Assembly (NCBI GenBank): GCA_030429765.1
Contig: JAUIER010000009.1
Coordinates: forward strand, 1-49,940
Length of the DNA stretch: 49,940 nt
DNA from: a bacterium
Lineage (GTDB): Bacteria; Omnitrophota; Gorgyraeia; Zapsychrales; Zapsychraceae
Reading direction: 5' to 3'
Shown: positions 26,276 to 47,534 of the stretch, piece after piece
Layout of the letters: the number at the start of each line of letters is the position of its first letter
Position numbering within the stretch: the first letter of the stretch is position 1
Made by a program: the position numbers and the translations under genes
The notes under the pieces: model-generated
Database searches by the model: none
Told to the model about the DNA's origin: nothing
Seen by the model: only the letters and a program-made list of their open reading frames with translations

Positions 26276-27039
26276 GAAAGACAATCATAGCGGGAAACTG
26301 GAAGCTCAATAAAACATGTAAGGAAGCGGTGGAACTGGTCACGGAACTCAACCGTGAAGTCAGTCAGGTCACAGAAGTGGATATTGTTGTATGTCCAGTA
26401 TTTACCGCGCTACGGGATGTCAGCGATGTGCTGGTTGATTCCAATGTCAAACTCGGCGCGCAGAATCTTTACTGGGAAGATGCCGGGGCGTTTACCGGTG
26501 AAGTTTCAGCTCCGTTGATCAAAGACGCGGGCGCGCAATACGTGATCATCGGTCACTCGGAACGTCGTCAGTATTTCGGCGAAACCGATGCGACGATTAA
26601 TAAAAAGATAAAAGCCGCTTTGGCGCAGGGATTAACACCGATTGTCTGTGTTGGCGAATTGCTGGAAGAACGTGAGTCAGGCGATACGGAAAAAGTCATC
26701 ACCGAACAGTTCAAGGGATCATTGGCCGGATACTCAGCGGATGATGTCAAACGCATGGTGATCGCGTATGAACCGGTCTGGGCGATCGGAACCGGCAAGA
26801 CGGCAACACCGGATCAGGCCCAGGAAGTTCACAAATTGATCCGGCAATTATTGGCCGACGGCTTCGGGCAGGAAACGGCCGATGTGGTCCGTATTCAGTA
26901 CGGCGGCAGCGCTAAGCCGGAAAATATAACAGAGCTGATTCAGCAGCCGGATATCGACGGAGCACTTGTCGGCGGCGCGAGTCTGAAGAGCGATTCTTTT
27001 GCCCAGATGATCAAAAACTGTATCGCAGTGGCTAAGTAA
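26272..27039 (+). CDS. tpiA: Triosephosphate isomerase
   Basis: A 255-residue TIM-barrel enzyme interconverting dihydroxyacetone phosphate and glyceraldehyde 3-phosphate. AGNWKLNKT contains the active-site Asn and Lys, [14 protein letters not shown] the electrophilic His, [16 protein letters not shown] the catalytic Glu and flexible loop 6, and [11 protein letters not shown] the phosphate-binding loop. All catalytic residues are intact. It is translationally coupled to pgk. Confidence 0.98.
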
Positions 27040-37489: not shown

Positions 37490-38695
37490 ATGCGAGACAC
37501 ATTAACATTTATTCTGGCGGGAGGACGCGGTGAGCGTCTGGATCCGCTGACACGTGACCGGACCAAGCCGGCCGTACCTTTCGGCGGGATCTATCGGATC
37601 ATCGACTTTACCCTGAGTAATTGCATCAATTCCGGCCTGCGTCGAATCTATGTCCTCACGCAGTACAAGTCCTTTTCGCTGCAAAAACATCTATTATCCG
37701 GCTGGGATATTGTGTCAAACCAGCTAGGTGAATTTATCGATGTTATCCCGGCTCAGCAGCGGGTGAGCCATGACTGGTACCGCGGTACGGCTGACGCCAT
37801 TTATCAAAACGCCTATGCGATTAAGGATTGGAATCCGGAACTTGTCCTTATTTTGGCCGGCGATCACATTTACAAGATGAACTACAAGGACATGGTGGCC
37901 TATCACAACGAAAAAAATGCCGATGTGACGGTGGCCTGTATCTCGATGCCGAAGGAGACATCAACTGATTTTGGGGTGATCCAGGTGGACAAGAACAATC
38001 ATGTCCGGGGATTTCAGGAGAAACCGTCACAGCCCAAGACCATTCCGGGGCGTCCCAAAGAAATTTACGCGTCCATGGGGATTTACTTATTTAAAAAAGA
38101 CGCGCTGCTTAAGGAGTTGGAGATCGACGCGAAGGTCAAGGATTCGGATCATGATTTCGGCAAGAACGTGATTCCGCAGATGCTCAAGAACAAACGCAAG
38201 ATTTATGTCTATAATTTCGTCGACGAGAAGGGTAAGCCGAAGTACTGGCGTGACATCGGAACGCGGGACGCGTACTACCAGGCCAATATGGACCTGCTGA
38301 AGGCCAAGCCGTCGTTTAATCTGTACGACCGGAATTGGCCGGTCCGGACATTTCACGAACAGTTTCCGCCGGTAAAGACCACGAGTTCACCTGCCTCGGG
38401 CAGTTCGGTCCTGAATTCAATGCTATCGGGCGGATGCGTAATCAACGGCGCCAAGATCGAGAATTCGATTCTGTCGTCGAACGTCAAGATCGAAAGCGGG
38501 GCGCATATTCGCAACTCGGTACTGATGGAGAGTGTCACCGTCGGACGAAATGCAAAGATAAAAAATGCCATCATTGATAAGGAAGTGGTGATTCCGGCCA
38601 ACGCCAAGATCGGATTCAACAAGGCGCTGGACCGCGAACGTTTTACGCTGACCACTTCAGGGATAGTTATAACGTTAAAGCGGCAGCAACTTTAA
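37490..38695 (+). CDS. glgC: Glucose-1-phosphate adenylyltransferase
   Basis: A 401-residue ADP-glucose pyrophosphorylase, the committed enzyme of bacterial glycogen synthesis. FILAGGRGERLDPLTRDRTKPAVPFGGIYR is split over the nucleotide loop and substrate region, and YRGTADAIYQNAY, ILAGDHIYKMNY, FQEKPSQP and ASMGIYLFKKD follow. The C-terminal third is the left-handed beta-helix with hexapeptide-like repeats (INGAKIENSILSSNVKIESG). It has its own promoter, and the short gap to fabV suggests co-transcription. No other glg gene is in the window. Confidence 0.96.
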   Translation: MRDTLTFILAGGRGERLDPLTRDRTKPAVPFGGIYRIIDFTLSNCINSGLRRIYVLTQYKSFSLQKHLLSGWDIVSNQLGEFIDVIPAQQRVSHDWYRGTADAIYQNAYAIKDWNPELVLILAGDHIYKMNYKDMVAYHNEKNADVTVACISMPKETSTDFGVIQVDKNNHVRGFQEKPSQPKTIPGRPKEIYASMGIYLFKKDALLKELEIDAKVKDSDHDFGKNVIPQMLKNKRKIYVYNFVDEKGKPKYWRDIGTRDAYYQANMDLLKAKPSFNLYDRNWPVRTFHEQFPPVKTTSSPASGSSVLNSMLSGGCVINGAKIENSILSSNVKIESGAHIRNSVLMESVTVGRNAKIKNAIIDKEVVIPANAKIGFNKALDRERFTLTTSGIVITLKRQQL

Positions 38696-38717
38696 ACCAA
38701 GAAAGGTTGAGAGACTT

Positions 38718-39911
38718 ATGATTGTTCAGCCGAAAATTCGGGGTTTCATCTGTACAACTGCGCACCCAGTCGGTTGCGCCCAGCATGTGCAAAATCAGAT
38801 TGATCATGTCAAGAAATCCGGTCCGATCGAGAACGGGCCGAAAAAGGTTCTAGTGATCGGATCGTCAACCGGTTACGGATTGTCGTCGAGGATTACCGCG
38901 GCGTGGGGATCAGGCGCGTCTACGATCGGTGTGTTTTTCGAGAAGGCCTCGGATGGACGCCGTACGGCCACGGCCGGCTATTACAATTCCGCCGCGCTGG
39001 AGCTCAAGGCGCATGCCGACGGGCTGTATGCCAAGAGTTTTAACGGAGATGCCTTTTCGACCGAGATCAAAGAGCAGGTGATGAAGGCCATCAAAGAAGA
39101 TTTGGGGCAAGTCGATCAGGTGATTTACAGTCTGGCCGCTCCCCGACGGGTTCATCCGGATACCGGCAAGATTTCCAAGTCGGTGCTGCGACCGGTCGGT
39201 CAAGAATACACCAATAAATCAATTAACATGGAAGCGCAACAATTGGAAGAGGTGACCTTGCCGCCGGCCACGGACGAAGAGATTACGCAGACGGTTGATG
39301 TGATGGGCGGCGAGGACTGGCAGATCTGGACAGACATGCTCGAGAAGAATAATTTGATCGCCGACGGGGCGCTTAATGTCGCTTATTCTTATATCGGACC
39401 TGAAATCACCAAAGGGGTATACCGCAACGGAACCATCGGTAAAGCCAAAGATCATCTTGAAGCGACCGCCCGTCAACTCGACGAGCGGATGCGAAAGTTC
39501 AACGGCCGGGCGCTGATCTCTGTAAATAAGGCGTTGGTCACACAATCCTCGTCAGCGATTCCGTTTATTCCTTTGTACTTTGTGTTGCTGAGTCAGGTCA
39601 TGAAGGATAAAAATATCGATGAAGATACGATCATGCAGATTGACCGGCTGTACCGGAAATTTCTATATGCCGGCGATGTGATCCCGGTGGACGACAACGG
39701 ATTTATCCGGCTGGATGATCTTGAGTTACGGCCGGATGTGCAGGAGATTGTTAACGCCAATTGGGATCGCTTAACCCAGGAAAACCTGGCCGAGCTGGCG
39801 GATCTGGACGGATATCACAAAGACTTCCTGCAATTGTTCGGGTTTGGGCTCAAGGGTGTTGACTACGATGCCGATGTCGATATCGAGGTCAAGGTTCCCT
39901 CACTCGCCTGA
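38718..39911 (+). CDS. fabV: FabV-type enoyl-ACP/trans-2-enoyl-CoA reductase
   Basis: A 397-residue NADH-dependent reductase that completes each fatty-acid elongation cycle, or acts on crotonyl-CoA in the TER subgroup. GFICTTAHPVGCAQHVQNQI and VLVIGSSTGYGLSSRI open the protein. SLAAPRRVHPDTG follows, and YRNGTIGKAK contains the Tyr-x8-Lys catalytic pair that distinguishes FabV from FabI. Length is normal. FabV enzymes are known to be poorly inhibited by triclosan. It lies 22 bases after glgC with an AAGG-type ribosome site. Confidence 0.96.
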   Translation: MIVQPKIRGFICTTAHPVGCAQHVQNQIDHVKKSGPIENGPKKVLVIGSSTGYGLSSRITAAWGSGASTIGVFFEKASDGRRTATAGYYNSAALELKAHADGLYAKSFNGDAFSTEIKEQVMKAIKEDLGQVDQVIYSLAAPRRVHPDTGKISKSVLRPVGQEYTNKSINMEAQQLEEVTLPPATDEEITQTVDVMGGEDWQIWTDMLEKNNLIADGALNVAYSYIGPEITKGVYRNGTIGKAKDHLEATARQLDERMRKFNGRALISVNKALVTQSSSAIPFIPLYFVLLSQVMKDKNIDEDTIMQIDRLYRKFLYAGDVIPVDDNGFIRLDDLELRPDVQEIVNANWDRLTQENLAELADLDGYHKDFLQLFGFGLKGVDYDADVDIEVKVPSLA

Positions 39912-40081: not shown

Positions 40082-40214
40082 TGACTTTCCCCAATCTCTA
40101 ATTTTTCCAACAAAACTTTAGTTTCTACGCGTCTTTCTATGTTCATGCGTGCGTCAATTAGCACGGCATGTTTACCAGGCGATTCCATGGATCGTCATAC
40201 CTAAGGCGAGGAAT

Positions 40215-43200
40215 ATGAGAGTTTTGAGGAAAACACGTTTGCAGCGGGCATCGGCATGGATGACATTATTGCTATTCAGCCTAAGTCTGTGCGTACCGCC
40301 GTTGGCTCTCAGCCAAAACCTCAGCGATCTTCCCGTTCCCGGGACATTTATATCACCCACATCTAATTTTAATGCGCCTGTTCTGAGCGGCGTTCGAGTT
40401 GATGCCCAACATCCACTGCGCCTGGAGTTTTTAATCCAAAATGGTCAGGCTCCGATGACAGCCGAGGAAATTGAGCGTGAATCGCAGCAACTCATTAAAT
40501 ATTTTTTAGCCTCGCTCACGATTCCGGATAAGGATCTGTGGGTTAATCTTCATCCCGAACAATCCGGACAGACCATCTCTGAACCCCTGCAACAGACAGA
40601 CATGGGGCATGTCTTGCTGAAACAGGATTATCTGCTCAAGCAGTTAACGGCATCGATGCTTCATCCTGATCAAGAGCCGGGCCGACGCTTCTGGAAGAAT
40701 ATTCTCGATCAGTCTTCCACTCAACTTGAGTCCGCCATTACGGGTCAGCTGTTACACCGCATCTGGATCGTGCCCAAGGACGCGGTCGTCGTGGAGGATG
40801 CGCAAGGGGCTTATGTTGTCAGTCATCGTCTGCAGGTGCGGCTGGAGCGTGATGATCTGACGATCGAGGAAGACGGGGAAGATATCACGGAGATGGCTCA
40901 AGAACTCGAACGGGTGATCCTTCCGGCCATTGAAGAGGAAATCAACCATGGCCGTAATTTCGCGCCGCTCAGACAAGTCTATCAATCGATGATTCTGGCG
41001 GCCTGGTATAAACGTCGACTACGACAAAGTTTGTTGGGGCAAACATACGCGGACCGGGCCAAGGTTCGGGGTATTGATACGCCGGACAATTCAATTGGCG
41101 AACAAGTGTATCAACAATACCTTCGGTCGTTGCGCCGCGGGGTTTACAACTTTATCCGCGAAGAGCCGGCACAAGGTCAGGGGCATCCGGTCCCGCGTCA
41201 GTATTTTTCCGGGGGTATTCTATCGATCAGTCCGTCTGATTTGACGATTATCCGCGCGGACCAGGCTCAGTTATCCGAGGCCGAACGTCAGCAGCTGTCC
41301 GCGTTCCTGGAGCGTTCCGTGAATGGTTATCGGGTGACCGCGGATCTGTTTGATCTGGGATCTGAGGCCGATGCCGCCATTTTGTCGGATGATTCAGATG
41401 ATTCCCATCGACTCTCCCAATCACAAACTGAGAATATAGTCAACGCGCGGCCATCCGGTATTCTGCGGCCAATTGATTTATTTAGCGAGCTCAGGCGATT
41501 CGGGGCCGAGCTGCAGGCCGAGCGGATTGACCAATATGATCTAGTGCGTCGTCAATCGATGACGGTGTATGACTTTGTCGATCGGATTCCCGACGAGGGA
41601 TTTACCCAAGGGCATATTCTGGGTATGCATAAATGGCAGGATAATTACCAGACGCTTGCCGATCTGTCGGGGCTTAAGACCTGGAATATTTCTTATCAGG
41701 AAATGTTCGGCCGGGAACGTGAACATCGGCAGGAGTTTATGGAACGCATTCTACAACAAGCCTCTAAGGATCGGCCGATATACTTTCTGGTTCCACGTGG
41801 CGTTTTTTCGCATCCGCATCGCAATGATCTGGCCCGTGAGTTGCGTTGGTTGTTGACCAGCGCCGAGTCGCTGGATCATGTTTATTTTGTCTTTGGGGCC
41901 TATGACACCGTGTCGGCCAGCGATTGGAATCATTCGTCGCTGAGCGCTGGTCAGGGGTTGTCCGCTTCTCAGCGCCGTCAGGTATTTGCTTATCTTCTTA
42001 AAAACCATCCCGACTACATGAAGGCTCCGATGTTTCCGGCGGATCCGGACTCTCGAGAAGCCGTGCACAATGCGGCGGTGGTTGAGATTGAGCGGAGTTT
42101 TGAGGAGTATTTCATGCAGTTTCAGCGTGTGACAGCCAAGGCGCGTGAAAACTTTATGACCCGTAATTGGGCCAACGGACTTTCCTATTCGCAGATGCGA
42201 TTTCGGTTGTACAACACGATCGCCTCGCACACGGCACAGGCCATGGGGCAGTTGCTTGGGCGCTTCATCGATGATCCCGAGATGTGGTCTCAGGTTCGCC
42301 AGACGATTGAGGAAGATTATCGGACAGAGGATGACGTGTATAAGTTGAATCTTTTACTAAACTTTCATGACACGATTCGCAGTCAGTTGTCCACGCTGCC
42401 GATGCACGCGGCAGATGTGGATTTCGATCTGAACCGCGGTGCGAGTGTCATCGACATGGAGTCAACCTCTGCATATCCATTTGTGGAAGGTCAGACGTTG
42501 GAGCAGGCCGTCCAGGCGATCATCACACCCTTTGGATTGAACCAGTATTTTGAAGATTTTGATGTGGATGTTGAAGTGGCGACGGAATTGCTGTCCGAGC
42601 AGTTGGAGGCGATCAATCCCGCCCTGACCATTGAATCATTTGAGATGGTCAATTCGCTGTTCTACCGGAACAAGGGGGCCTACATCGTCGGACGCATGCA
42701 GACATCGGAGGGAATTGTCCCGTTGGTCTTTGCCTTGAATCATCGTCCGGCAGGGATCTCAATTGATGCGGTTGTCTCAGAACGGACGGCGGTACGGAAC
42801 TTGCTGCTATCCTCAACGCGGGTGGCATTTCATGTGCTGGCTGCGGATTATCGGGAGATCATTCAGTTTATTGCCGAGATGTACCCGGAGGTCAATCGCG
42901 CGCAGATCTACGACCTGTTGGGATTGGGACAGAGATCGCAATATGTTTACCTCGGTGAACTGTATGGACTACTAGAGGAAGGTCAGAAACTTGAGTTTAT
43001 CGGTCAGGGGCCGCAGTCGGTGACATTTTCAGCGCCGGAGGCCGGACTGGTCCTTAAGGTCGTCCGAGACGACGCGCCGGACCGTAACGAGGTTATCACA
43101 AACTATCAGGATATTCATAAATCTAATCGTTTGGGCCAGTTGCTGGATTCATGGCGGTATTCCAATCTTCGCCTGCCGCGGGATATGGTGTCCGATGAAT

Positions 43201-46200
43201 TGCTTGAAATTCTGCAACGGGAAACACAGTTGGATGTCATGATCTCCAACGACGACGTGGTATTCTTAAATGTCTACGCCCAGCGAAGGATTATGACGGT
43301 TCCGCAGTATCTGGAACAGACTCAGGATGACAACATCCGGCGTGAGACATTGCTGAAACTGGGTTGGAATATCAAACATTTGGCTGCGATGGGGATTCTG
43401 CCGACGGATGTGTCAATGCGTCATTTTGGGATCACGTCCTGGGGGCGGGTGGTTTATCTGAACAATGCGGGTTTGGCACGCATGGCGCAAAGTGAGTTTT
43501 ATTTTTCGCCGCAATATCAGTATCTTCCGGAACATAACATGATGCAGGATCCGATCCGGCGTATTTGGAATCTCGAACGGAAGGGGATACAGTACGATGT
43601 TTATCCGAGCGCGATGCGCCCGCAGATGAATATTCCCGCTGAGTTTGAAACGGAGTTTATGCAGGTTCACGCGGATCTGTTCACACCGGATTTTTGGAAC
43701 TCGATGAAATGGCGGCTTGATACCGACCAGCTGCCGGATATTTTTCCCTACGCGAGTCGTTTCCGGCTGAAAGCCAAACGGATGGCGCGGACGTTACGCG
43801 GGTTGGGACTGGGAAATGCGACGGACGAGATCACAGATTATTCAGAGGATGAATCGCTGGAGATATCTGAGATCAAGATTAAGGGGTTGAAGTTCCTCGA
43901 GCTCAAAGTCCCCAATCCTCGGGCCCGCATTCTCGTCGTAGAGCCAATCGGGCCGGATATCATCTCCATGCTGCATCAGAAATTAGGGAATGTGAATTTT
44001 GATATTATTCAGCCGGAATCCGAGGTTGTCGAGGATGCCAAAAACTGGACGCCCGGTGTGCGCGGTAAACTCGTCGAGCTGGTGAATGCCCGACACTATG
44101 ATTATGTTTTGGGCTACGTGAATGAAACATTTGATGTTAATTTTTTTAACGAAGCGGAGATCAAAGGCTTAATCCTCTTCTCAACGGGGATTCATAATAT
44201 TGACCTCGAAGCCGCCACGGCCAACGGGATTGTTGTCACCAATGCGCCTGGACCGACCACGGTGGCGGTGGCCGAACAGAATATCGGATTGATGCTCGAC
44301 AGTGTGTACGGAAATCGAGCCCATGATCAGCCCTTACCGGACCATGTCGCTCTGGTCGAGCAGGCTTCACTGAAGTCGGCGTCACCCGATACGGTTGCTC
44401 AGATCCTTTGGTATCAGTTGTTACGTCAATCACTCAAGCTGGACGAGATGTTTACGTTTGGCGGAGAGGGGCGGTACGTGAGGACGGGTGTCGGTTCGTT
44501 GGCGACTGTTTATCATGAGCAGCTTGGTCAAAGTCGAGAGGCCGGTATTCATCAGAGTATCGGTATTGTCGGGCTTGATGCCGTCGGAGAACGTTTGGTG
44601 GAAATGGCGATCCTGCATGAATTATCCACGATCTATGTGCTTCGGGAGGAGTTCGATGCCATGCCGGAAGACACATTAATTAGATGGCAGGCCCTGATTG
44701 ATCATATCAAGCGAGACAAGGCGGAATTCGGTGTGGATATCGTCATTAAGGCGGTGTCCCGTGAGGATATGATCGCACGGTCGAACTATCTGCTGGCGAC
44801 GCCGGAGGCGGTTATGCGTGAGGATGTGTCAGCGACGGATTTGATTGAAAAATTGGATGTAAACCCGGCCGATATTTTTGTGCGTGAATCGGATGATTTG
44901 TCGCAATCGATGGCCGGTTTGTCGGTTGGAATTCAGGGGTTGGGCCGGATCGGAAAGGCGGTCGCTCAGCGGCTGACCGCCATGGGAGCGGACATCCTGG
45001 TCAATCAGCGTCTTCATACACGTTTATCTTATCAACGCAAGCGGGCCTTTCTTGACGCACTCATCAGAACCCTAAATGCCACACGCGAACCTCTGATGGA
45101 ATTGATATCTTTTGTGGAACAGCAGGACCTGGTGGAATCCAGTAACATTCTCACCACACTAACCCCGCTAACGACGGATACACGGGTCTGGATTGACGCG
45201 GAACGCTTGAAGGATTTCGGCCGTGAGGCCAAGGGTTCAGTGAGGGCGATCGTGAGTCAGGTTAAAAATTTGATTGATGAGGAAGCATTGCTGGATTACC
45301 TAAAGGATCGCTCTGATGTCGAGGTCCGCTTAGATGTGGTAAACCAGGAAGAGCGCGGCGACGCCCATCTACGCTTCCGGGATGATAAGGGGCAGCCGCT
45401 AACGAATATCAAAATTGCCGGGCATACGGCGGCGGCTGTAGCGGAGGTTCGACGCCTCAAAGTCCGACGGGCCATGGACAATCTGGAGCATATGATGGAC
45501 GATAAACTCCCGCCGAATGTCCTGAATCCGCTGGTGCTGCGTCCCGATGAACAGGATATTGAACTCGCTGGTCTCAAGTTCAGACGGATGCGTGTGGTGC
45601 GGCCCAAGGCGAATGTACTCGTGGTTGAACCGTTAAACGAGGATATTCTTGAAGCGGTGTATCAGCAGTTTCCCGACGTGAATTTTGATGTTATTCAGAG
45701 TGAGTCTGAAATCATTGAGCGCGATGGGCGATTGATTTCCGGCATTGATCCGAGCATCGATCAGATTGTCCGGGAAAATGATTATGATTTTTGCGTGGGC
45801 TATTGTAATACTCGTTTTGATGAGGACTTCTTTGAAGGCGCTGATTTGAAGGGATTGGTGTTATTTGCTACGGCCGAACATCATATAGATCTGGACGCGG
45901 CAACCAATCATCAAACGCTGGTGACAACAGCGCCGGGGCCAACAACCACGGCGGTCGCCGAGCAGAATGTCGGCTTGGCGCTCGACGGTCTATTTGGTCA
46001 GGATATCGTCGATCAGTCTACCCCCGACGCAATTCGTCTGTCGGATATTCATGTGCGGGATCAACAGCAGCGCTCGTCGGTGGCCCAGATTATGTGGTAC
46101 AGTCTCCTGAAAAAAGTTTTAAAGCTGGATGAAATGTTTGAATTCGGCCGTTCGGGAAATTATGCCAAGACCGGTGTCGCCGTGGACGCCACGGTTTACC

Positions 46201-47534
46201 ACGATCAGCTGGGTCAGAATCTAGAGGCCGGTATTCAAACACGTGTAGGTGTGCTGGGTTTAAATGGAGTGGGGGTTGAGTTGATTGAATATGCCATTGC
46301 ACATGAAGTTTCCAAGATTCATGTCTACAAGGAGGAGTTTGACGGGTTAGACGTGGAATCGCAGATGCGGATTATTACCTTATTTGAAACGGTCGAGTCC
46401 ATGGCGGCCGATCGTGATGTGGAGATAGACTTGGTATTTGTTGAGGACTTGGATATGATGTACCAGGTGGACTATCTATTGAAGACCTCTGCGGCTCCGG
46501 AAAGGGTGATGGTTGAGGACGAATCGATGAAGTACGGTGAGGTTATCAGAGCGGCGGATATTTTTATCCGGGATGAGAATGTGCTTACACAATCTTTGGT
46601 CGGACGCAATGTCGGTGTACATGGCATCCGCCGCATCGGAACGGCAGTTGCTCAACGCCTCTTGGTCATGGGGATTAATCTTTTAGTCGACGAAGCAAGT
46701 CTCGACACGCGTGATATTAATCTAAAGCGCTCAGGATTTTTTAGGCTGTTTCGACATCGACGAGGCATTTATAAGGATTTAATGAACGAACCCACTTACT
46801 TGTCGAAATCGGATTTTCTGCGCCGAAGTGAGATGATCACACTGCTGGGAAATTCTTCCGCGGAGGAGAATTTTCATTGGATCGATCGTGACGCCCTGGA
46901 AATGTTTGGCGCGGATGCGCCGGGTGATACGCGTGTGCTGATCAATGTCAGCAAGTATCAAGCCGATGAAGATGCTATTAAGACATACGCCCGTTTAAAT
47001 CCGCAAGTGCAGATTCGCCTGGACGTATTGAGTGATGAGACGACAGGAGAAGACCAGAATATGTTTGTCGACGTCGACGGTGAAGCATTGGCCAATGTCA
47101 AGCTGTCCGGTCACACGGCGGCCGCGGTCTGGGCTGTGCGGCGTCTAAAGATTAACCGCGCATTGAATAATCTGCGTTCACTGATTGATGGGCAGATTCC
47201 CAGTCATATCCTAAATCCTGAAGTCTTAGGAAGCCAAAGCGCCGATGAAGGAGGCGAAGATGAGGCGATGACGGCTGAATCAGCGGATGACCGGAAAGTC
47301 GGGGGGATTAATCTTGATACCTCACTGCTGGATTTACAAATACAGCGCGATGACAATGGTATCCCTTTGCCGCTGCATCAACAGCATATTGAGCACATGC
47401 AAATTCAGGGATTTATACCGATTATCATCCACATCGAACCGATTATGCACGTCCCGTTCATTCTTGGATCACATCAATCGCCAGATGTCCAACCGTCAGA
47501 AGCCGAATGGGCCCTGTCTAAGTCCCGTCCCTAA
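40215..47534 (+). CDS. Giant secreted protein: Omnitrophota-type N-module, AceK-like domain, tandem 2-hydroxyacid-dehydrogenase-like domains, conserved tail
   Basis: 2439 residues from ATG 40215, which has an AAGGCGAGG ribosome site; an in-frame GTG at 40149 is less likely because only the ATG puts the signal peptide at the N-terminus. Residues 1-34: basic n-region, hydrophobic core, ALSQ cleavage region. Residues about 50-350: N-module with YFLASLTIPDKDLWVNL and QDYLLKQLTASMLHP. Residues 416-616: unassigned alpha/beta region. Residues 620-1192: AceK-like, with RNKGAYIVGR, Lys948, QRRIMTVPQYL, PTDVSMRHFG and VHADLF, but Asn and Ala where AceK has key Asp residues. Residues 1236-1776 and 1801-2336: two D-2-hydroxyacid-dehydrogenase-like domains with insertions. 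Residues 2363-2439: tail with GGINLDTSLLDLQI and NGIPLPL. Enzyme activity is doubtful; a structural or binding role outside the cytoplasm is inferred. Confidence 0.9.
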   Translation: MRVLRKTRLQRASAWMTLLLFSLSLCVPPLALSQNLSDLPVPGTFISPTSNFNAPVLSGVRVDAQHPLRLEFLIQNGQAPMTAEEIERESQQLIKYFLASLTIPDKDLWVNLHPEQSGQTISEPLQQTDMGHVLLKQDYLLKQLTASMLHPDQEPGRRFWKNILDQSSTQLESAITGQLLHRIWIVPKDAVVVEDAQGAYVVSHRLQVRLERDDLTIEEDGEDITEMAQELERVILPAIEEEINHGRNFAPLRQVYQSMILAAWYKRRLRQSLLGQTYADRAKVRGIDTPDNSIGEQVYQQYLRSLRRGVYNFIREEPAQGQGHPVPRQYFSGGILSISPSDLTIIRADQAQLSEAERQQLSAFLERSVNGYRVTADLFDLGSEADAAILSDDSDDSHRLSQSQTENIVNARPSGILRPIDLFSELRRFGAELQAERIDQYDLVRRQSMTVYDFVDRIPDEGFTQGHILGMHKWQDNYQTLADLSGLKTWNISYQEMFGREREHRQEFMERILQQASKDRPIYFLVPRGVFSHPHRNDLARELRWLLTSAESLDHVYFVFGAYDTVSASDWNHSSLSAGQGLSASQRRQVFAYLLKNHPDYMKAPMFPADPDSREAVHNAAVVEIERSFEEYFMQFQRVTAKARENFMTRNWANGLSYSQMRFRLYNTIASHTAQAMGQLLGRFIDDPEMWSQVRQTIEEDYRTEDDVYKLNLLLNFHDTIRSQLSTLPMHAADVDFDLNRGASVIDMESTSAYPFVEGQTLEQAVQAIITPFGLNQYFEDFDVDVEVATELLSEQLEAINPALTIESFEMVNSLFYRNKGAYIVGRMQTSEGIVPLVFALNHRPAGISIDAVVSERTAVRNLLLSSTRVAFHVLAADYREIIQFIAEMYPEVNRAQIYDLLGLGQRSQYVYLGELYGLLEEGQKLEFIGQGPQSVTFSAPEAGLVLKVVRDDAPDRNEVITNYQDIHKSNRLGQLLDSWRYSNLRLPRDMVSDELLEILQRETQLDVMISNDDVVFLNVYAQRRIMTVPQYLEQTQDDNIRRETLLKLGWNIKHLAAMGILPTDVSMRHFGITSWGRVVYLNNAGLARMAQSEFYFSPQYQYLPEHNMMQDPIRRIWNLERKGIQYDVYPSAMRPQMNIPAEFETEFMQVHADLFTPDFWNSMKWRLDTDQLPDIFPYASRFRLKAKRMARTLRGLGLGNATDEITDYSEDESLEISEIKIKGLKFLELKVPNPRARILVVEPIGPDIISMLHQKLGNVNFDIIQPESEVVEDAKNWTPGVRGKLVELVNARHYDYVLGYVNETFDVNFFNEAEIKGLILFSTGIHNIDLEAATANGIVVTNAPGPTTVAVAEQNIGLMLDSVYGNRAHDQPLPDHVALVEQASLKSASPDTVAQILWYQLLRQSLKLDEMFTFGGEGRYVRTGVGSLATVYHEQLGQSREAGIHQSIGIVGLDAVGERLVEMAILHELSTIYVLREEFDAMPEDTLIRWQALIDHIKRDKAEFGVDIVIKAVSREDMIARSNYLLATPEAVMREDVSATDLIEKLDVNPADIFVRESDDLSQSMAGLSVGIQGLGRIGKAVAQRLTAMGADILVNQRLHTRLSYQRKRAFLDALIRTLNATREPLMELISFVEQQDLVESSNILTTLTPLTTDTRVWIDAERLKDFGREAKGSVRAIVSQVKNLIDEEALLDYLKDRSDVEVRLDVVNQEERGDAHLRFRDDKGQPLTNIKIAGHTAAAVAEVRRLKVRRAMDNLEHMMDDKLPPNVLNPLVLRPDEQDIELAGLKFRRMRVVRPKANVLVVEPLNEDILEAVYQQFPDVNFDVIQSESEIIERDGRLISGIDPSIDQIVRENDYDFCVGYCNTRFDEDFFEGADLKGLVLFATAEHHIDLDAATNHQTLVTTAPGPTTTAVAEQNVGLALDGLFGQDIVDQSTPDAIRLSDIHVRDQQQRSSVAQIMWYSLLKKVLKLDEMFEFGRSGNYAKTGVAVDATVYHDQLGQNLEAGIQTRVGVLGLNGVGVELIEYAIAHEVSKIHVYKEEFDGLDVESQMRIITLFETVESMAADRDVEIDLVFVEDLDMMYQVDYLLKTSAAPERVMVEDESMKYGEVIRAADIFIRDENVLTQSLVGRNVGVHGIRRIGTAVAQRLLVMGINLLVDEASLDTRDINLKRSGFFRLFRHRRGIYKDLMNEPTYLSKSDFLRRSEMITLLGNSSAEENFHWIDRDALEMFGADAPGDTRVLINVSKYQADEDAIKTYARLNPQVQIRLDVLSDETTGEDQNMFVDVDGEALANVKLSGHTAAAVWAVRRLKINRALNNLRSLIDGQIPSHILNPEVLGSQSADEGGEDEAMTAESADDRKVGGINLDTSLLDLQIQRDDNGIPLPLHQQHIEHMQIQGFIPIIIHIEPIMHVPFILGSHQSPDVQPSEAEWALSKSRP

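Follow-up and report, generated by a model that had tools for sequence, protein, structure and literature searches.

The window analysed here is a stretch of 49,940 nucleotides, contig JAUIER010000009.1 of an Omnitrophota bacterium, and its DNA appears to come from a metagenome-type assembly. Its forward strand carries, at positions 40,215-47,534, a gene for an exported multidomain protein of 2439 amino acids that contains a homologue of AceK, the isocitrate dehydrogenase (ICDH) kinase/phosphatase known from E. coli as a single-purpose, cytosolic metabolic switch enzyme. The reading frame is open from a GTG at 40,149 (2461 amino acids), but the ATG at 40,215, which is preceded by AAGGCGAGGAAT, is the more likely start. 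Residues are numbered here from the GTG and are thus 22 higher than in the preliminary description of this DNA, which counted from the ATG.

An AceK homologue with altered catalytic residues

Both AceK domains are present in order, with the regulatory domain (PF20423; 42,087-42,935, residues 647-929) matching its Pfam model at 143.5 bits (E 1e-41) and the kinase domain (PF06315; 43,020-43,754, residues 958-1202) at 145.6 bits (E 2.5e-42). The full-length NCBIfam model PRK02946 aligns over its positions 14-577 of 582 with 290 bits, short of its equivalog cut-off of 488, and E. coli AceK entries are the sole matches in a PDB sequence search (E 4e-39). An AlphaFold model of the domain, computed from the window sequence and ten relatives (pLDDT 78.5, pTM 0.75), has E. 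coli AceK 6k5l as its top structure match (TM 0.81, E 1.9e-29), while other kinases match only at E above 0.002. Pfam alignment, comparison with the E. coli structure and AlphaFold modelling, all suggested in the preliminary description, therefore return AceK, and the motifs named there lie within the segment. The similarity is far above chance, and the segment is genuinely homologous to AceK.

The catalytic centre is largely replaced. In the alignment, the ATP-binding lysine K336 (K970; 43,056-43,058) and the catalytic base D457 (D1087; 43,407-43,409) are retained, K461 reads R1091, histidine takes the place of the metal ligand N462 (H1092; 43,422-43,424), asparagine that of the metal ligand D475 (N1105; 43,461-43,463), and Ala-Gly that of the phosphatase residues D477-E478 (43,467-43,472; A1107 at 43,467-43,469 and G1108 at 43,470-43,472). 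The kinase triad D457/N462/D475 thus reads D, H, N, with two of three residues lost, and both acidic phosphatase residues are gone. The retained lysine and aspartate (948 and 1065 in the earlier count) and the replacements at D475, D477 and E478 (Asn1083, Ala1085 and a Gly) had been recognised in the preliminary description, which overlooked the change of N462 to histidine and so understated the damage to the triad. An alignment shift that would restore acidic residues is ruled out: GILPTDVSMRHFGITSWGRVVYLNNAGLARM aligns ungapped over a 31-letter AceK stretch and holds no acidic residue past D1087. Neither such a shift nor a lack of AceK matches, the two outcomes that would have spoken against the original claim, was found.

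Published work on the E. coli enzyme indicates what these changes could entail. Mutating the kinase triad, made up of D457, N462 and D475, eliminates kinase activity (PMC3747045); metal 1 is bound by N462 and D475 and metal 2 by D475 and D477, and the D477A variant shows no detectable metal binding by calorimetry and a phosphatase kcat/Km about 240-fold lower (PMC6591243). A D477A change by itself would spare kinase activity, but since the metal-1 ligands are also lost, canonical kinase or phosphatase activity is unlikely. Judged from these residues, a metal-dependent AceK reaction of either kind by the window domain is doubtful. Compared with E. coli AceK (3eps, 6k5l), the domain shares the full-length regulatory and kinase parts, the fold, K336 and D457; it differs in the four replaced residues, in an ICDH recognition loop (about 485-530) of which 6 of 25 invariant positions are retained, and in its setting within an exported protein of 2439 residues with no aceBA in the window, instead of a cytosolic protein beside aceBA. 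It is an AceK variant, AceK by homology and fold and not by catalytic residues.

The domain sits within a longer array. An N-terminal signal peptide (40,215-40,313), with a basic n-region, a hydrophobic MTLLLFSLSLCVPPLALS and putative cleavage near ALS/Q, is followed by a family N-terminal domain (NTD; 40,320-41,168) and a linker that leads to the AceK regulatory domain. Downstream of the kinase domain lie two tandem duplicated repeats resembling D-2-hydroxyacid dehydrogenases or glyoxylate reductases (43,869-45,638 and 45,639-47,273), of which the first has a single GLGRIG Rossmann motif where the second reads IRRIG. The catalytic histidine is retained (GHTAAA) and the catalytic arginine is not evident, its poorly aligned position seemingly being lysine. 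The protein ends in a family C-terminal tag (GGIDLNP..LxL...GFxPVIIxIxPxxxLPxLLG; 47,298-47,531).

The exported protein family and its enzyme cargo

The signal peptide, NTD and C-terminal tag place the window protein in a family in which variable cargo is held between conserved ends. The window's own genome holds 25 copies of the NTD, with 39-46% identity between the window's copy and the others, and the domain has at least 466 relatives in genome contigs; by title, nearly all of the best 80 of these loci belong to Omnitrophota/Omnitrophica, with one Planctomycetales and two "bacterium" entries. No Pfam family covers it, and neither profile comparison nor a structure search with its AlphaFold2 model (pLDDT 81) found a relative in the PDB. 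A signal region is found in all 24 own-genome members with a complete N-terminus, the window protein included, and the tag in 24 family open reading frames (ORFs) of that genome, including a 5'-truncated one on contig C12. Complete NTD ORFs of other genomes (n=64) have a signal region in 63 cases and the tag, no more than 42 residues from the end, in 58. This is an Omnitrophota-specific family of exported proteins with a signal peptide, in which the NTD and C-terminal tag are conserved and the cargo between them varies. The view that the window encodes an AceK homologue that is exported and whose catalytic centre is broken is accordingly supported, by profile, alignment and fold for the domain and by a family-wide signal peptide for its predicted export.

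The preliminary description had remarked that no aceA or aceB lies nearby, which is correct for the window; the genome has both, each solely in a giant exported protein. Its one isocitrate lyase (ICL) lies in a 3299-residue frame on contig C12, which reads from the contig edge a malate synthase (MS) C-terminal domain, class I aldolase and triosephosphate isomerase (TIM) domains (each twice), the ICL and the C-terminal tag. Its one MS lies in an NTD protein on contig C32, whose end truncates the frame. Since C32 ends within MS after the NTD and C12 begins with the MS C-terminal domain, the two are probably parts of one gene interrupted by a gap between contigs. In these loci, L090 (G000:C12:1-13000) and L091 (G000:C32), lie all matches to class I aldolase, ICL and MS in the genome, and the joined gene would start with a signal peptide and NTD. 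An ordinary stand-alone TIM is encoded at 26,284-27,018 of the window, and the giant TIM copies are therefore extra. The genome's ICDH is represented only by ordinary stand-alone genes of the Iso_dh family (340 and 394 amino acids).

The giant enzymes have largely kept their active sites. Giant ICLs retain 16-18 of 19 active-site positions (KKCGH, W, D, R, N-S-S) versus 39-67% of other invariant positions, and giant MSs 6/6 or 7/7 (R166, E250, GRWD and D447, each wherever aligned) versus 29-44%; the positions were chosen from family knowledge, and one of them, ICL V155, varies among ordinary enzymes. Both giant aldolase copies keep the ADES, TKWR, EPE and VLKTSM motifs, and the second TIM copy looks degenerate. 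At the level of sequence, catalysis seems to be under selection in the giant lyase, synthase and aldolase but not in the window AceK.

Other cargo in the same genome includes parts of pyruvate phosphate dikinase, a glutamate dehydrogenase-like protein and a pyridoxal phosphate enzyme, among others. No AceK, ICL or MS cargo was found in the 80 best NTD loci of named genomes, which indicates that such cargo is rare. A further exported member of 4033 amino acids (L066:254-12352) combines a glycogen branching enzyme, two glycogen/starch synthase regions and a 4-alpha-glucanotransferase in which the MalQ motifs RLDHF, EDLG and TGTHD are present.

AceK and giant glyoxylate enzymes across the phylum

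A survey of 384 genomes of the phylum found clear AceK in nine, all in long frames, of 1035-3637 amino acids apart from G097, whose two contig-cut pieces measure 942 and 1126 amino acids; a stand-alone AceK gene of 580 amino acids was found in none. The window's own genome has this one AceK match only and no ordinary AceK elsewhere. Scored over K336, D457, K461, N462, D475, D477 and E478, retention ranges from complete in G309 and G237 (7/7) through G291 and G034 (5/7), the G097 fragment (4/6) and G035 (4/7) to the window and G132 (2/7 each) and G078 (1/7). G132 has lost K336, D457 and N462 and kept D475, whereas G078 has lost K336, D457, N462 and D477. The occurrence of intact AceK in some relatives and of degenerate copies altered at different residues in others suggests that loss was local, and the earlier proposal that inactivation marks a new branch does not stand. 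The Asn/Ala pair of the window domain, for which shared occurrence among homologues had been a suggested check, is in no other genome examined.

Among 32 genomes of the same taxonomic family, the window domain matches only G309 (27% identity) and G132 (24%), and no AceK copy was found in G311, the sole same-genus relative searched. In the AceK tree, the window domain has a very long branch (2.23) and its grouping with G132 is unsupported (49/51); with few rows and long branches the tree does not decide between one and several losses. Weaker AceK matches in giants of G311, G111, G282, G242, G294, G315 and G044 were rejected, as they cover the catalytic-loop region only and resemble other kinase-like folds. 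Giants with such short catalytic-loop matches (L055, L056, L058, L059, L061 and L062), most of them reading D..N..D, likely form a separate kinase-like family. The G291 protein (L046; 2121 amino acids) joins a zinc alcohol dehydrogenase and an acyl-CoA dehydrogenase to a nearly intact AceK and adjoins an isocitrate lyase frame, and the G078 frame (L050), cut by a contig end, has a tandem pair of AceK regulatory domains, the first followed by the kinase domain with one of seven residues.

AceK tends to occur with giant ICL. The lyase is present in giant form in 5 of the 9 genomes with full AceK versus 3 of the 375 without (p 1e-7; p 3e-6 when the window's own genome is left out), values made optimistic by treating related genomes as independent; these figures leave out a 36-bit AceK match in G044, which another version of the test included. 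AceK and ICL are in adjacent genes in G035 and G291, and in G035 a single contig carries MS, ICL and AceK one after another, each in a long frame. MS and ICL share one frame in G309, G132 and G044, and nine genomes have ordinary neighbouring MS (~540 amino acids) and ICL (~440 amino acids) genes without AceK. A single chain in G044 (L189; 3587 amino acids) amounts to a gluconeogenic set, uniting ICL and MS with GTP-type phosphoenolpyruvate carboxykinase and with domains like those of glutamate dehydrogenase.

Possible roles of the window protein

The window domain is best explained as a non-catalytic AceK pseudoenzyme in a Sec-exported family protein, acting in a structural or regulatory capacity alongside an exported module of glyoxylate and gluconeogenic enzymes (probability roughly 0.6). 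It would perform no metal-dependent kinase or phosphatase chemistry on ICDH; together with the two altered glyoxylate-reductase-like repeats it may form a structural or nucleotide/protein-binding module, whose partners would be the exported proteins with glyoxylate shunt and gluconeogenic steps. Both the AceK part and the repeats, with their histidine kept and no evident catalytic arginine, make the protein as a whole likely non-catalytic. Several points weigh against this explanation: loss of canonical residues is no proof of inactivity, as some kinase-fold proteins use other chemistry; the retained K336 and D457 make nucleotide binding possible; the hardly conserved recognition loop speaks against binding of ICDH; and the very long branch fits plain decay.

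Plain decay is indeed the main rival, a minority possibility in which a once-useful AceK cargo is eroding within a fast-evolving giant and is itself without function. It would account for the different residues lost in the window, G132 and G078, for the branch length and for the missing copy in the same-genus relative, but it fits less well with a 7.3-kb frame that is intact with both family ends, or with an AceK that keeps its whole length, its fold and about 30% of the positions invariant in canonical enzymes. Clearly less probable is an active enzyme of changed chemistry, a kinase-fold transferase that would use the retained K336 and D457 with other metal ligands or none; the histidine and asparagine do sit at metal-ligand positions, yet both metal-1 ligands, the metal-2 ligand and E478 have changed together, in a combination that no relative shares. 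A decoy that binds host or own ICDH, blocks it and diverts isocitrate to the exported ICL is very improbable, for despite the co-occurrence of AceK with giant ICL and the kept lyase active site, the recognition loop is poorly retained and export parts the domain from the cell's own ICDH, encoded by stand-alone genes only.

If the pseudoenzyme reading is followed further, the need of glyoxylate and gluconeogenic reactions for acetyl-CoA and sugar phosphates means that export is most economically read as delivery to, or surface use at, a partner cell. By way of speculation, the giants may be metabolic effectors for such a cell, with the window protein as their non-catalytic partner. Broader still, and of rather low probability, is the proposal that the phylum's exported giants jointly supply a functional glyoxylate shunt along with gluconeogenic steps and the synthesis of glycogen. 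The NTD and C-terminal tag would serve as their address, carbon metabolism in or on a partner cell would be remodelled, and the window protein would be a non-catalytic, AceK-derived regulator or scaffold.

Previously, Omnitrophota ORFs above 20 kb were counted and found to have few annotated domains, some of them adhesin-like (Seymour et al. 2023, PMC10066038). The present family resembles these in phylum and in its long, extracellular-type proteins, and a host-associated lifestyle was proposed there; it differs in its defined terminal domains, its central-metabolism cargo and its smaller size (mostly 1.5-13 kb, with the window ORF at 7.3 kb below the 20-kb mark). Neither AceK nor isocitrate is mentioned in that study. 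Chlamydia trachomatis, which secretes glycogen enzymes (PMC3722199, PMC4829429), offers an analogy only: it too exports metabolic enzymes, and a family member here has glycogen enzymes, but its glycogen synthase GlgA is a free-standing protein located in the lumen of the inclusion and the cytosol of the host, unlike giant fusions with Sec signal peptides. The nematode bifunctional ICL-MS (PMC1630690) joins both enzymes in one chain, as do G132, G309, G044 and probably the window's own genome; unlike it, the giants have extra domains and export signals, and both enzymes are absent from the window protein itself. Within an incomplete coverage of the literature, no report of an inactive or exported AceK was found, nor any paper combining AceK with pseudokinase, or Omnitrophota with AceK or isocitrate lyase; the two papers found on Omnitrophota and glyoxylate concern, by title and abstract, community metabolism.

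Natural AceKs devoid of metal ligands provide a test of what the AceK fold does apart from catalysis, and the presence of ICL and MS with preserved active sites, in the window's genome only in proteins with export signals, raises the question of how Omnitrophota interact with other cells. Moreover, the NTD and C-terminal tag constitute a candidate addressing system for hundreds of uncharacterised large proteins. Directly upstream of the gene, at 37,490-39,911, lie an ADP-glucose pyrophosphorylase-like gene and a FabV-type enoyl reductase gene, with no AceK link seen. In long proteins without the NTD (L049, L050 and L053), RSE(L/M/V)R recurs near the N-terminus and may be a processing or sorting site.

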